From: Streptomyces sp. ASQP_92
GTDB taxonomy: Bacteria; Actinomycetota; Actinomycetes; Streptomycetales; Streptomycetaceae
Reading direction: 5' to 3'
Length of the DNA: 64,000 nucleotides
Assembly: GCF_025399895.1 (NCBI RefSeq)
Contig: NZ_JAODUA010000001.1
Coordinates: forward strand, 1,302,001-1,366,000
Shown here piece after piece: positions 30,252 through 35,085 of the stretch. The notes beneath the pieces are model-generated. The model was not told where the DNA came from. It ran no database searches and saw only the letters and a list, made by a program, of their open reading frames with translations. The number at the start of each line of letters is the position of its first letter. Position 1 is the stretch's first letter. The translations under genes were made by a program, and so were the position numbers.

Positions 30252-30965
30252 ATGAGCTCATCCGACCAGCACGACGAGGCGCACAACGGGGCCCTCGGCT
30301 CGCGGCTCAACTGGTTGCGGGCCGCGGTCCTGGGCGCCAACGACGGCATCGTCTCCACGGCCGGACTGGTCGTCGGCGTGGCCGGGGCAACCGACGACCG
30401 CTCCGCGCTCCTGACCGCCGGCCTGGCCGGACTGCTCGCCGGCTCCATGTCCATGGCGGCCGGCGAGTACGTCTCCGTCTCCACCCAGCGCGACTCCGAG
30501 AAGGCCGCCCTCGCCCTGGAGCGCCGGGAGCTGAAGGAGTCGCCCGAGGCCGAACTCGCCGAACTCACCGGCCTGTTGGCCGAGCGCGGGCTCAGCGAGG
30601 AGGTGGCCCGCGAGGCGGCCGTCCAGCTCACCGAACGCGACGCCCTGCGCGCGCACGCCAGCGTCGAGCTGGGCATCGATCCCGACGAACTCACCAACCC
30701 CTGGCACGCGGCCTGGGCCAGCTTCCTCGCCTTCACGGCGGGCGCGCTGCTCCCCCTCCTCGCGATCGTGCTGCCCCCCTCGTCGGTCCGCCTGTACGTG
30801 ACGGTCGGCTCGGTCCTGGCCGCACTCGCCCTGACCGGCTGGTGGAGCGCCCGCCTCGGCTCGGCCCCGGCCCACCGCGCGGTCCTGCGGAACATGGGCG
30901 GGGGCGCGGTGGCGATGGCGGTCACTTATGCGGCGGGGGCGTTGCTGGGGGCGGTGGGGGTGTGA
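30252..30965 (+). CDS. VIT1/CCC1-family transporter (iron or manganese)
   Basis: The 237-residue membrane protein begins SSSDQHDEAHNGALGSRLNWLRAAVLGANDGIVSTAGLVVGVAG, the family signature. It then shows SMAAGEYVSVSTQRDSEKAAL and a cytoplasmic acidic stretch followed by C-terminal helices (AWASFLAFTAGALLPLLAIVLP). Family members move Fe2+ or Mn2+, into vacuoles in eukaryotes; bacterial direction is unproven. It follows the amidohydrolase by 24 bases but may not belong to the same operon. It converges with the NACHT gene, only 3 bases between stops. Confidence 0.88.
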   Translation: MSSSDQHDEAHNGALGSRLNWLRAAVLGANDGIVSTAGLVVGVAGATDDRSALLTAGLAGLLAGSMSMAAGEYVSVSTQRDSEKAALALERRELKESPEAELAELTGLLAERGLSEEVAREAAVQLTERDALRAHASVELGIDPDELTNPWHAAWASFLAFTAGALLPLLAIVLPPSSVRLYVTVGSVLAALALTGWWSARLGSAPAHRAVLRNMGGGAVAMAVTYAAGALLGAVGV

Positions 30966-30968
30966 GCG

Positions 30969-33900
30969 TCAGTACCGCTCCAGGCGCTCGGGCGGGATGG
31001 ACTCGGCACCCTGGACATCGGTCCTGCTGTACCGGATGTGGAGCCGGTCCAAGTGGGCGAGAGTGCTCAAATCGAGTCGACCGGTGCAGTTGTAAAGCGA
31101 CAGAGATCGAAGATCCGGCAGCTCGCGCAGGATTCCCAGGCCCGCGACGAGACGGCAGTTACTCAGATTGAGGTAGGTCAGCCCGCAGTGCTGGATCAGT
31201 GCGGCCGGGTCGAGGGTTTGATGGTCACCGATCTGCAGGGTGCGTAGATTCCGCAGAGTGGAACGGTGCACCAGTTCGCCCGCTTGGAGGCCACCCGTGA
31301 TAGTCAGGTTGCGGAGGTCGGGCCAACGCTCCAGACCGCTCAGGCTGATCCTCTCTGACCCCCGGTACAGACCCAATGTAAGGAGCCAGTCCGGGGCCGG
31401 AATGTCGGCAATACGCCGGGTCTCACCGGGGATCCCTAGTGCGAGAGCCTCCAGCCGGTCAAGTGCGGCCAGGGGTGTTAGGCAAAGGCGGGGCGAGAGC
31501 GTGGCGAGCGAGAGGTCGCGGAGGGCGGGCAGGCCGGAGACGGGTGTGAGATCCGTGATGGCCGGACAATTGTGTAGAGCCAGGCGCTCCAGGGCGTTGA
31601 GCTGAAGCAGTGGGACCAGGTCTTCGACGACACCGTTTGCGATGAGGTTCAAGGCGGTCAGGCCCGGGTGGGTGAGAACGACGTCCGGCAATGCGCAGTC
31701 GCCCTCCAGGTTGATCATCCGCATTCCTTGGAGTCGGCTCAGCTGAGCCACCTGCTCCTCGGTGCGTACACTGAGATAGGTATTTTCCCATTCCTGGGCC
31801 GGTCCCAGTACCTCTGTCACATATTCCGCTGCGTCAAACTTGCCCCAGGCCAGGCCGAGTTGGACCCGCACCCTGGGTCGCTTCTCACCTCGGAACCGCC
31901 TGATCGCGCCTAGCGCCGCATCCCCGCCAATCAGCCCCGCCGTCCGCACCGCAAAAGCCGCCTCGTCTTCGGTAAGCCCCTCCGGCCCCGGCAGCAGCTC
32001 AAGGACCAGCGGCCCCACCTTGGCCAGGGCTTCCGCCTCGTCCCACGAACGTGGGGGCATCAGTTCGCGGGCCCGCTCCTCCACGTCGGCCCACACGGCT
32101 GGGTCCAGCTCCGGGGCGTGCTCCAGGCAGGCCGCGGCCAGAAGTACCAGCCGGTGGCGCAGCCGCGGCGCGTGGTCGGCGCGGCGCAGCAACTGACGTA
32201 GTAGACGTGCCCGTTCGTCCGCCCGTGCGTGGCCCACCGCCATCCGCACCACGTCGTCCCATGTGTCGTCGTGCGCGTTGCGCACCAGGACGCCGAAGTC
32301 GCGCTCCTCCACCGCCGCCTTCGCGCCCAGATAGTCCTGGAAGGTGCGGTGGACGAAGCCGACCGCGCCAGGCATGGGCTCGCGAAGCAGCCCGCTGCGG
32401 ATCAGCAGGTGGGCGAAGACGTGGTCGGGGTCGCCCGTCACCTGCGGCATCGCGCCGAGCCACTCTGTCACCATCGAGGCGACCTCGTCCCGGTCCGCCT
32501 CCGCGAGGCCGTTGCGGATTAGCCAGTACGCGAGCCGCTGGAGCAGGGCCGTCTGCTCGTCGCGGGTAAGGGTGACCCCCTCGACTCCGGTGATCTCCCG
32601 CTCGGTGTCCCGTCGCACGAGCAGCATGTCGAGCGCGGCGTCGTACAACTCTTTGCGGGCGCGGGGAAGTTGCATGCGTCGGTCCCGGTTCAGGGCGCAC
32701 AGGAGCGCGCACATCAGCGGGTTGGTGGCGAGTCGCCCCAGGTCGCGGCGGGAGGCCACCGCCGTGAGCAGCGAGGCCTCGTAGGTGTCCAGGCGCTCCC
32801 GCTCCTCGGGCGCCGGGCAGGCGAGCCGCGCCGAGGCGTGCCAGTGGGCCACGAAAGCGCGGACATCCTCGCGCTCCATCGGCAGGAGCGAGTGCGCCAC
32901 GAAGCCCTGGCCCGCCAGCCAATCCTCGGACACCGCCGACGGTCGGGTCGTGACGACGTATCGAGCTGCGGGGAACGCCGTCACCAAGGACTTCAGCCAG
33001 GCTTCGGTCCGGGCCCGCAGCCGCATAGGGACCTCGTCCACACCGTCCACCAGGACCAGTGCCCGGCCCTCCGACAGGAGCTGCCCGGCCCAGCCGGGCG
33101 CGGGCGTCAGCGGCACCCCGGCCGCCTGCAGGAAGTCCTGCGGCATCGGCAGCGACGCTGCCGAGGTGAAAGCCCGCAGGCGCAGGACGAAAGGAACACA
33201 CCTGTTCCAGTCGGCCAGTTCGGGGCCGAAGGTCCGGCGGGCCGCGTTCAGCGCCAGCCACTGCACCAGCGTGGACTTGCCGGAGCCCGCCGGGCCGCGC
33301 AGCAGCAGTCGGCTGTTTCCGGCGAGCGCCTGCTCCACGCCCATCGTGGCGGCCCGCGCGTGGGGGAGCCCCACCGCCTGGCGGGGCTCCCCGCTGACCG
33401 CGAGGCTGATGTACGCCGTGTCCAGCGGCCATTCGCTCGCCGAGCGGCCCAGGGTCAGACCGAACAGTTCGAGTCGCCCGTGGATCTCGGCCACGTACCG
33501 CGCGTACGTCTCCTCGAAGGCGAGCGCGGCCGCCTCGGGACGGGGGCCGACCCGGTCGCGTACGTCCTCGATCAGGCCGCGCGCGGCCTGGGCCGACCTG
33601 GTCTGCTCCAGCGCCGCCCGGGCCGCGAAGGAGGGATGCGCGGTGAGCTGTTCCAGGACATGCGCGCAGCAGAGGGTGAGGAGTTCGTCATAGAGGGCTT
33701 CGCCGGGGCCGGGGTATGGGCGGCGCAGTTCGGCGGCGAGGCGGTCTGCGTCAAGGCCTAGCGAAAACAGGCGGTCCAAGCCGAGGGCGCCGGCTGCCGC
33801 GAAGCCGTCCCGAACCGCGTCGACGGCCGCCGCCCGCTCGTGCTCGGGCAGCGAGTCATGGGCTTCGTCGAGGCGGCGTCCCAGGACCTTCGCGAGACGA

Positions 33901-34163
33901 TCGGGGGAGGCCTGTTTTGGCAGCGGGCGCAGCGGCCCGGCGACCAGACCTGCGCCCGGCCTCGGGGTCAGGACGGACTTCGCGACCGCCGAGACCACCG
34001 TGCAGGCAAGACGCAGCACCACAACTTCAAGGCCTGGCACCGTAATTGTCTCCCCCCAGAGCGCACCGGTACCGGCGATCGTACGCCGCACCCTCCGCAC
34101 CGATTGGCGGAACTCACCAACGGCTGCTGACAACCCGTCTCGCATACTTGTCGGTAACAACAT
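30969..34163 (-). CDS. NACHT-LRR NTPase (bacterial NLR-type protein)
   Basis: This 1064-residue protein has an N-terminal helical domain (about 1-285), a NACHT NTPase core and C-terminal leucine-rich repeats. Walker A is GPAGSGKS (290-297), Walker B LVLVDGVDE (369-377), sensor-like TTRP (405-408), and the NACHT winged-helix motif GFVHRTFQDYLGAKA (602-616). About 12 irregular LRRs follow (about 810-1045), for instance LTALNLIANGV, LERLALHNCP and LRSLSLYNCTG. Bacterial NACHT proteins are a known antiphage class in which LRR or other C-terminal regions can sense phage products. No effector fusion such as nuclease or TIR was recognised. The ATG at 34163 gives a TTA codon at position 3; ATG at 34145 would avoid it. 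The terminal repeats have lower G+C than the neighbours. Confidence 0.9.
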   Translation of the reverse strand: MLLPTSMRDGLSAAVGEFRQSVRRVRRTIAGTGALWGETITVPGLEVVVLRLACTVVSAVAKSVLTPRPGAGLVAGPLRPLPKQASPDRLAKVLGRRLDEAHDSLPEHERAAAVDAVRDGFAAAGALGLDRLFSLGLDADRLAAELRRPYPGPGEALYDELLTLCCAHVLEQLTAHPSFAARAALEQTRSAQAARGLIEDVRDRVGPRPEAAALAFEETYARYVAEIHGRLELFGLTLGRSASEWPLDTAYISLAVSGEPRQAVGLPHARAATMGVEQALAGNSRLLLRGPAGSGKSTLVQWLALNAARRTFGPELADWNRCVPFVLRLRAFTSAASLPMPQDFLQAAGVPLTPAPGWAGQLLSEGRALVLVDGVDEVPMRLRARTEAWLKSLVTAFPAARYVVTTRPSAVSEDWLAGQGFVAHSLLPMEREDVRAFVAHWHASARLACPAPEERERLDTYEASLLTAVASRRDLGRLATNPLMCALLCALNRDRRMQLPRARKELYDAALDMLLVRRDTEREITGVEGVTLTRDEQTALLQRLAYWLIRNGLAEADRDEVASMVTEWLGAMPQVTGDPDHVFAHLLIRSGLLREPMPGAVGFVHRTFQDYLGAKAAVEERDFGVLVRNAHDDTWDDVVRMAVGHARADERARLLRQLLRRADHAPRLRHRLVLLAAACLEHAPELDPAVWADVEERARELMPPRSWDEAEALAKVGPLVLELLPGPEGLTEDEAAFAVRTAGLIGGDAALGAIRRFRGEKRPRVRVQLGLAWGKFDAAEYVTEVLGPAQEWENTYLSVRTEEQVAQLSRLQGMRMINLEGDCALPDVVLTHPGLTALNLIANGVVEDLVPLLQLNALERLALHNCPAITDLTPVSGLPALRDLSLATLSPRLCLTPLAALDRLEALALGIPGETRRIADIPAPDWLLTLGLYRGSERISLSGLERWPDLRNLTITGGLQAGELVHRSTLRNLRTLQIGDHQTLDPAALIQHCGLTYLNLSNCRLVAGLGILRELPDLRSLSLYNCTGRLDLSTLAHLDRLHIRYSRTDVQGAESIPPERLERY

Positions 34164-34200
34164 CTAGCCGGAGCCGCCACCCCGCCCCTACGGTGCAGGC

Positions 34201-35085
34201 ATGTCGCCGAACCTGCCCGATGTCGTGCTGTGGTCGATACCCGCCTTCGTGCTGCTCACCGTCGTCGAGATGGTGAGCTACCGCCTCCATCCGGACGAGG
34301 AGGCCGCGGGGTACGAGACGAAGGACGCCGCCACCAGTGTCGGCATGGGGCTCGGCAGTCTTGTCTTCGACGCGCTGTGGAAGATTCCCATCGTCGCGAT
34401 CTACACGGCCGTCTACGCGCTGACCCCGCTCGCCATCCCGGTCCTGTGGTGGACCGTGCCGCTGATGCTGCTCGGGCAGGACTTCTTCTACTACTGGTCG
34501 CACCGCGGCCACCATGTGATCCGGATCCTGTGGGCCTGTCACGTGGTGCACCACTCCAGCCGCAAGTTCAACCTCACCACCGCCCTGCGCCAGCCCTGGA
34601 CGACCTGGACGGTGTGGCCCTTCTATGTGCCGCTCATCGCGCTGGGCGTGCACCCGGCGGTCCTCGCGTTCTGCTCGTCGGCGAACCTCGTCTACCAGTT
34701 CTGGGTGCACACCGAGCGGGTCGACAAGCTGCCCCGGCCCTTCGAGTTCGTCCTCAACACGCCCTCCCACCACCGGGTGCACCACGCGTCGCAGGGCGGC
34801 TATCTGGACCGGAACTTCGGCGGCATCCTGATCATCTGGGACCGGATGTTCGGCTCGTTCACGGCCGAGACCGAGCGGCCCGTGTTCGGGCTCACCAAGA
34901 ACATCTCCACCTTCAACCCGCTGCGCGTCGCCACCCACGAGTACGCCGCCATCGCCCGCGACGTGCGCGCCGCGAGCACCTGGCGCGAGCGGGCCGGGCG
35001 GATCTTCCGCGGCCCGGGCTGGCAGCCGAGGACGCCGGTGGCGCCGGCCGCCGAGCCCGTCGCCGTGGCGGAGCGCGCCGTATGA
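34201..35085 (+). CDS. Sterol desaturase/fatty acid hydroxylase-superfamily protein
   Basis: The 294-residue membrane protein has about four helices and the diiron histidine boxes HRGHH (near residue 101), HVVHHSSRKFN (near 114) and HHRVHHA (near 190). Members hydroxylate, desaturate or cleave lipids; the closest family type includes alkylglycerol monooxygenase (TMEM195/AGMO) and related enzymes. The next gene is a lysoplasmalogenase, which supports a lipid role. The start is ATG 34201; it is divergent from the NACHT gene with a 37-base gap. Confidence 0.88.
   Translation: MSPNLPDVVLWSIPAFVLLTVVEMVSYRLHPDEEAAGYETKDAATSVGMGLGSLVFDALWKIPIVAIYTAVYALTPLAIPVLWWTVPLMLLGQDFFYYWSHRGHHVIRILWACHVVHHSSRKFNLTTALRQPWTTWTVWPFYVPLIALGVHPAVLAFCSSANLVYQFWVHTERVDKLPRPFEFVLNTPSHHRVHHASQGGYLDRNFGGILIIWDRMFGSFTAETERPVFGLTKNISTFNPLRVATHEYAAIARDVRAASTWRERAGRIFRGPGWQPRTPVAPAAEPVAVAERAV

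Follow-up and report, generated by a model that had tools for sequence, protein, structure and literature searches.

Within a 64,000-nucleotide stretch of the Streptomyces sp. ASQP_92 genome (NCBI RefSeq assembly GCF_025399895.1, contig NZ_JAODUA010000001.1, positions 1,302,001 to 1,366,000 of the forward strand; here called the window), a minus-strand gene encodes a protein in which an NNH1 domain, a NACHT nucleoside triphosphatase (NTPase), and leucine-rich repeats (LRRs) follow one another in this order. Among its relatives, the NNH1-NACHT part, which we call the switch, is conserved and the LRR half is divergent, the two halves combine into mosaics, and the chromosomal slot is found filled by the gene, without it, or holding a relic. 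We think it probable on balance that the gene encodes a single-protein bacterial nucleotide-binding leucine-rich repeat receptor (NLR) in a fixed slot, with an LRR that is swapped between lineages as an allelic cassette, and that the protein likely senses invaders such as phages and would kill or arrest the infected compartment through its N-terminal helices. It is the cassette-like variation between relatives that makes fast-changing invaders such as phages the likely target. Residue numbers follow the 1023-residue form of the protein, except for the motif stretches 290-297, 369-377, and 602-616, which are counted along a longer, 1064-codon frame.

Divergence and probable exchange of the LRR half

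Mean pairwise identity among 39 sequences is 0.73 in NACHT, 0.76 in the helical part that follows it, 0.57 in NNH1, and 0.36 in the LRR. The LRR half also differs where switches are nearly identical: two proteins labelled S. xanthochromogenes share 99.8% of residues 1-650 and 50.6% of the LRR, two labelled S. atroolivaceus share 98.8% and 56.8%, and, in a comparison of 162 proteins that excludes the query's long form (P0001), the 65 pairs with switches at least 95% identical have a median LRR identity of 67% and a minimum of 41%. With one genome per species (42 sequences), LRR identity is 35-71% in 11 of the 13 pairs with switches at least 88.5% identical. At the DNA level, identity between loci L062 and L074 stands at 85-95% across the near flank and the switch, sinks to 46-57% within the LRR, and is back at 87-96% once the gene has ended; the corresponding values for the window and L078 are 78-94%, 56-67%, and 90-95%. 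Mosaics are seen as well: P0148 resembles P0134 in its switch (95%; LRR 40%) and P0058 in its LRR (88%; switch 82%), P0143 and P0133 are of the same kind, and set thresholds give 98 mosaic triplets covering 11 distinct mosaic proteins. Maximum-likelihood trees of NNH1, of NACHT with the following helical domain (NACHT/HD), and of the LRR each reject the topologies of the others (log-likelihood gaps 280-894, Shimodaira-Hasegawa p 0), a conflict that loses some force as evidence for exchange in that LRR alignment error inflates it; approximately unbiased tests also reject the swapped topologies but are flagged as under-replicated, the Shimodaira-Hasegawa values and likelihood gaps being firmer. 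For 21 sequences out of 42, the switch and the LRR have different nearest neighbors; 42 is the number left in the distance, tree, rate, and close-pair sets once L067, L070, L076, and L077 (N-terminus cut by the contig end, out of frame, or strongly diverged) are taken out.

Judged by these comparisons, the LRR half acts like an allelic cassette that can be exchanged at a fixed slot. Fast point mutation of the LRR under relaxed constraint or positive selection, without exchange, would fit its ratio of nonsynonymous to synonymous divergence (dN/dS), the highest of any region (median 0.71 over 1035 pairs, vs 0.25-0.30 in NACHT/HD; 46 sequences, window included), and the correlation that remains between LRR and switch distances (rho 0.45), but we regard it as decidedly unlikely: a 99.8% switch joined to a 51% LRR, together with the mosaics, demands exchange rather than speed alone, synonymous divergence is raised in the LRR too (0.69 at exposed positions, 0.60 in the rest, and 0.41 in the framework, vs 0.35 in NACHT/HD), and LRR framework positions stay conserved. 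Of the position classes compared, the LRR face predicted to be exposed shows the greatest variability, with an entropy of 2.83 bits vs 1.17 for the framework and 0.73 for NACHT/HD and a pooled dN of 0.41 vs 0.05 for NACHT/HD, where the exposed and framework classes cover the 7 of 11 LRRs recognized by motif and 10 pairs hand-picked among close pairs.

Base composition bears on the same boundary. The G+C content of the window's LRR is 0.637, vs 0.72-0.73 for NNH1, NACHT, and the helical part after it, and the mean over the same 46 sequences is 0.68 in the LRR vs 0.72-0.75 elsewhere. The first-pass annotation, a model's reading of the window's letters, was thus right that the LRR is low in G+C, but its interpretation as a sign of acquisition does not hold, since the LRR is lower on average across these sequences and the low value marks the cassette rather than a recent arrival. 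At E<=0.001 the strain's own genome yields no second copy of the LRR half, which makes other strains the likely donors. Exchange could proceed by homologous recombination, for which the conserved NACHT/HD half on one side and the downstream gene on the other would supply the arms. A 616-kb Streptomyces plasmid (NZ_CP108391.1:546452-549527; H1) carries a 60% identical homolog in two pieces and is a possible vehicle for cassette exchange.

Several points weigh against this reading of the LRR. Two of the 13 close pairs (L072/L073 and L039/L079) keep an LRR identity of 91%, and their DNA identity does not drop at the LRR. An LRR at least 75% identical and more than 2 points above the switch occurs in only 3 protein pairs, and recent donors are therefore seldom in the sample. 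LRR distances correlate with those of six neighboring genes more weakly than switch distances do (rho 0.10-0.47), yet the correlation holds for five of the six (0-4 of 500 permutations reach it; in full 0, 1, 100, 1, 4, and 0, the 100 being for VIT1), so the LRR is not free of descent. Clustering of the protein collection at 90% identity conceals pairs whose two halves are both alike, and the frequency of exchange therefore cannot be estimated. Finally, with a pooled dN/dS of 0.59, the exposed face stays under 1, and positive selection there is thus suggested, not proven.

A fixed slot beside VIT1 and hydroxylase genes

The gene stands by itself, as the first-pass annotation had stated: a convergent VIT1-family gene ends 3 bp away (30965 vs 30969), and a hydroxylase gene is divergent on the other side. 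From at least 316 relatives, 80 loci in named genomes were kept, 45 at 53-77% identity (orthologs) and 35 at 40-46% (paralogs). At least one of the window's neighbors lies within the fetched flanks of 40 of the 45 named Streptomyces orthologs and of none of the 35 paralogs. The remaining five of the 45 orthologs have none of these neighbors, which counts against a fixed address; they are L055, L064, L072, L073, and L082 (53-61% identity), and L072 and L073 have flanks in common. Universal presence in Streptomyces at this locus, which the annotation had said would speak against its reading, is not seen: an ortholog, here a row with at least 55% identity, occurs in 23 of 150 genomes of the genus, the strain's own included, and of these 20 lie within 3 kb of the hydroxylase gene and 9 adjoin VIT1.

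The two flanking genes are at most 8 kb apart in 40 genomes (from 80 VIT1 and 97 hydroxylase rows; dropped were 11 VIT1 rows at 73-77%, VIT1 rows at 44-48%, and 8 hydroxylase rows at 45-58%), of which 7 have the NLR in between (gap 3238-3289 bp) and 33 have no full gene (gap 82-1131 bp). Eight of these gene-less gaps were looked at, and the three longest of the 33 contain relics: L120 keeps residues 1-190 (88% identical to an ortholog), L121 keeps LRR residues 781-1028 (60%), and L119 keeps a piece of 79 residues (52%). The five shorter gaps (L122-L126) hold no credible NLR piece apart from a promoter-side block. Loss therefore accounts for at least part of the patchy distribution. Switch distances among the 42 sequences track those of the neighboring genes (rho 0.33-0.68 over the six genes, reached by 0 of 500 permutations each). 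The shared neighbors, the relics, and this correlation together contradict a recent form of the acquisition suggested by the first-pass annotation, and the gene is no recent arrival in its slot. An immune-type gene would then reside at one constant chromosomal site, where it is lost or its alleles are exchanged, rather than in a mobile defence island.

Diversification and exchange of the LRR, along with presence/absence variation, support an immune-sensor role indirectly. The gene could instead encode an allorecognition receptor that distinguishes hyphae or mating partners by their LRR alleles, in the manner of the fungal het NLR genes. Polymorphic LRR alleles and gene-less alleles at one slot in a hyphal genus are in keeping with this, and fungal NLR allorecognition is known from the accessible literature, but no candidate partner gene adjoins, the flanks being metabolic and transporter genes (a ligand encoded elsewhere was not searched for), and we consider this unlikely. 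Signal transduction ATPases with numerous domains (STAND NTPases) also regulate antibiotic pathways in Streptomyces, GdmRI/II being named in this connection in the text available, and the neighbors here are metabolic genes; a STAND-type regulator of metabolism or development is nevertheless very improbable, given that no DNA-binding domain is among the Pfam matches, that the gene is missing from 33 of the 40 genomes keeping VIT1 and the hydroxylase together, and that the LRR is variable.

Gene start, domains, and possible output

The features of the gene and its edges are listed in the table. The first-pass annotation had described a protein of 1064 residues, with the strand unstated; that frame (30969-34163, minus strand, from an ATG) is indeed open, but the true start is probably the GTG at 34040, giving 1023 amino acids (aa). 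None of the aligned relatives reaches the ATG of the long frame, and most start at or a few residues from the GTG, about 40 residues later (alignment A1, 29 of 120 listed proteins, hand-picked); GGGGGGAG precedes the GTG; genomes without the gene (L123, L125, and L126) retain the DNA under the long frame's first 20-26 codons; and an in-frame stop at residue 8 or 21 interrupts the extension in 4 of the 23 orthologous loci, while it is open in some other orthologs, e.g. L011 and L019. With the GTG start, the region ahead of NACHT would therefore be about 244 residues, not 285. The sequence ATACTTGTCGGTAACAACATCTAGCC (34144-34169), which lies upstream of the hydroxylase gene, is found again, little changed, in the gene-less slots L122-L124 and may be the hydroxylase promoter or operator. 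In one of the 23 orthologous loci, L014 (G129), the helical part that follows NACHT is interrupted by an in-frame stop at long-form residue 609, which may reflect ongoing loss or a sequencing error.

Table. Features of the NNH1-NACHT-LRR gene and its edges, in window positions
Feature	Position	Strand	Basis
VIT1-family transporter gene, downstream edge of slot	30252..30965	+	annotation of window, locus comparison
NNH1-NACHT-LRR gene, likely true extent (GTG start, 1023 aa + stop)	30969..34040	-	relatives' starts, ribosome-binding site, promoter-side DNA at gene-less sites, stops in extension
Putative arm-plus-LRR cassette, residues about 650-1023 (LRR proper 31008-31760)	30972..32093	-	DNA/protein identity, trees, mosaics, model
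Zone where switch identity yields to cassette variation, residues about 640-690	31971..32123	-	DNA and protein identity
Conserved motif GFVHRTFQDYLGAKA, C-terminal to NACHT core	32316..32360	-	sequence, alignment
NACHT NTPase domain	32832..33311	-	Pfam
Walker B LVLVDGVDE	33033..33059	-	sequence, alignment
Walker A GPAGSGKS	33273..33296	-	sequence, alignment
NNH1 domain, Pfam match (predicted helical bundle reaches residue 187, 33480)	33585..34016	-	Pfam, model
N-terminal hydrophobic helix, residues 2-24, then conserved GAGL(V) motif	33969..34037	-	alignment, hydrophobicity, model
5' extension of 1064-codon frame, probably not translated	34041..34163	-	relatives, gene-less sites, stops
Ribosome-binding site GGGGGGAG, 9 nt before GTG at 34040	34050..34057	-	read from sequence
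Block upstream of divergent hydroxylase gene, also at gene-less sites (TTGGCGGAACTCACCAAC...ATACTTGTCGGTAACAACATCTAGCC)	34104..34169	.	window vs L123; right-hand part also L122, L124
Fatty-acid hydroxylase-family gene, upstream edge of slot	34201..35085	+	annotation of window, locus comparison

By Pfam, the protein contains NNH1 (PF22733; 75.2 bits, E 9e-21, cut-off 27), NACHT (PF05729; 78.6 bits, E 6e-22, cut-off 26.7), and LRR_4 (33.6 bits, E 4e-8, over cut-off). The three motif stretches to which the first-pass annotation pointed read GPAGSGKS (290-297), LVLVDGVDE (369-377), and GFVHRTFQDYLGAKA (602-616) and are nearly invariant across 29 aligned sequences, the window's included; a NACHT profile with Walker A and B places the protein among the STAND NTPases of the NACHT clade, and NACHT and LRR lie within one protein, as in a bacterial NLR. 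Foldseek matches the full-length model best to NAIP/NLRC4, NOD2, NLRP14, and NLRP3 (E 4e-12 and weaker), with TM-scores of 0.17-0.27 that are low because NACHT is poorly modelled. The layout predicted from domain order and model is that of a single-gene NLR, and the likeness to eukaryotic NLRs claimed earlier is borne out. The earlier count of about 12 LRRs needs a small correction, the repeats being present but the model showing 11 strands, with high confidence and a spacing of about 23 residues; LRR relatives among solved structures include internalins and the CtRoco LRR.

The N-terminal region, in which the first-pass annotation recognized no known effector, belongs in fact to a catalogued family, NNH1, whose name carries no function in Pfam and whose listed named matches are from Streptomyces. 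Among 198 genomes of the phylum, NNH1 is over cut-off in 6, of which 5 are of the window's genus. The predicted helical bundle has a predicted local distance difference test (pLDDT) score of 77.7, and a separate helix at residues 2-24 (block pLDDT 86-88) is followed by the GAGL(V) motif in all 29 rows of A1 and in 45 of the 50 rows (six of them paralogs) of a second alignment, A2. The latter comprises the window and 49 of 56 non-redundant slices from plus-strand frames (loci stored in reverse gave none), with L050, L067, L070, L073, L076, L077, and L109 out. In L077 (9419-10174), the NNH1 part has diverged strongly and contains a tandem repeat of the GGGGSQDPP type.

In the mechanism we propose, with steps drawn from established NLR biology, a ligand on the variable LRR face would release autoinhibition and nucleotide exchange would lead to assembly of a NACHT ring. 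The hydrophobic N-terminal helices of the clustered NNH1 bundles may then perturb the membrane, leading to abortive infection within the hyphal compartment; this is the least certain step. That NNH1 is a membrane-acting death domain is our best guess, though well short of an even chance, from hydrophobicity and from analogy to HeLo/BELL domains in the available text of PMC7889193. The N-terminal helix contains the window protein's highest Kyte-Doolittle 19-mer. On the opposing side, the hydrophobicity of the helix is only moderate over 42 orthologs (maximum averaging 1.43, range 0.41-2.00) and the Eisenberg scale puts one LRR stretch slightly above it, so a membrane role is not established; neither sequence nor fold gives NNH1 a significant PDB match; and PADLOC gives two weak P-loop matches (best E 0.0049 over 31 residues) and no credible whole-protein match. 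No catalytic motif is evident in NNH1.

Instead of killing by itself, NNH1 might serve as an adaptor, recruiting a distinct effector whose gene lies elsewhere. Pfam, PADLOC, and NCBIfam scans recognize no effector in the protein, and bacterial NLR systems with a separate effector are described in the accessible text on BASS/BELL pairs (PMC7889193) and CARD-NLR (PMC13236601), but the neighbors common to the orthologs are not effector-like and no second NNH1 protein was found in the strain's own genome (one match only), and we consider an adaptor somewhat unlikely.

The strain's own genome has eight further NACHT matches, at G000:C9:246783-247262 (L001), on C24, C17, C13, C3, C27, and C1:893211 (L003-L008), and at C2:521642-521911; five are over the Pfam cut-off outright, one only with in-frame neighbors, and two below. 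The one among them in a protein of 1180 aa matches the window protein only from residue 215 on, and that protein seems to have another N-terminus. In other genomes, three to four paralogous NACHT matches, at 40-47% identity, run within about 9-17 kb (G128:C2:6691152-6707733, G123:C14:30876-42532, and G136:C1:3094142-3103130).

Relation to known NLR systems

Bacterial NLRs with LRRs are already known; the new part would be natural exchange of LRR alleles at a conserved locus, of which we found no account in the accessible parts of the openly licensed literature. A protein with NACHT and LRR is termed a 'bona fide bacterial NLR' in the available text of PMC12169576, and the bNACHT proteins described there likewise have three parts, an N-terminal domain, NACHT, and a C-terminal sensor. 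They differ in that the N-terminal domain is NNH1 here and the architectures there are nuclease or SNaCT, and that text does not mention an exchangeable LRR at a fixed slot. The antiphage NACHT protein EruA (NCBIfam NF058535) has weak similarity C-terminal to the NACHT core and is ruled out as an identification (15.1 bits vs a cut-off of 1000).

Two further systems come from multicellular or filamentous bacteria. NACHT sensors diversified by retroelements (PMC10907252, in its accessible part) are also NACHT proteins with a diversified C-terminal sensor, but the target of these diversity-generating retroelements (DGRs) is a lectin fold accompanied by a reverse transcriptase, whereas here there are an LRR, mosaics, and diverged synonymous sites; the synonymous divergence and the mosaics argue against DGR diversification of the LRR, a reverse transcriptase or template repeat not having been searched for. 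The BASS/BELL amyloid NLR pairs, in the text available (PMC7889193), are similarly NLRs of filamentous bacteria with a helical candidate domain for membrane targeting, but there two genes are joined by an amyloid motif and here there is one gene. Its flanks, VIT1 and hydroxylase genes, do not make up such a two-gene system (the amyloid motif itself was not searched for).

Plant and animal NLRs have the same nucleotide-binding oligomerization domain (NOD) and LRR layout, by fold matches, and differ from the protein at this bacterial locus in their N-terminal domain by Pfam. In plant NLRs, the LRR face is fast-evolving. To our knowledge, the ligands of bacterial NLR LRRs are mostly an open matter, and a constant switch with natural LRR alleles offers a ready-made experiment, with one output and many sensors, for mapping ligands to LRRs. 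It is plausible, if somewhat short of an even chance, that the locus is a counterpart of plant R-gene loci, in which a constant NNH1-NACHT switch with one membrane-killing output is served by swappable LRRs that recombine within and between species and form a shared repertoire against phage or non-self. The locus would also connect bacterial NLRs with the way in which plant R genes and fungal het genes swap alleles.

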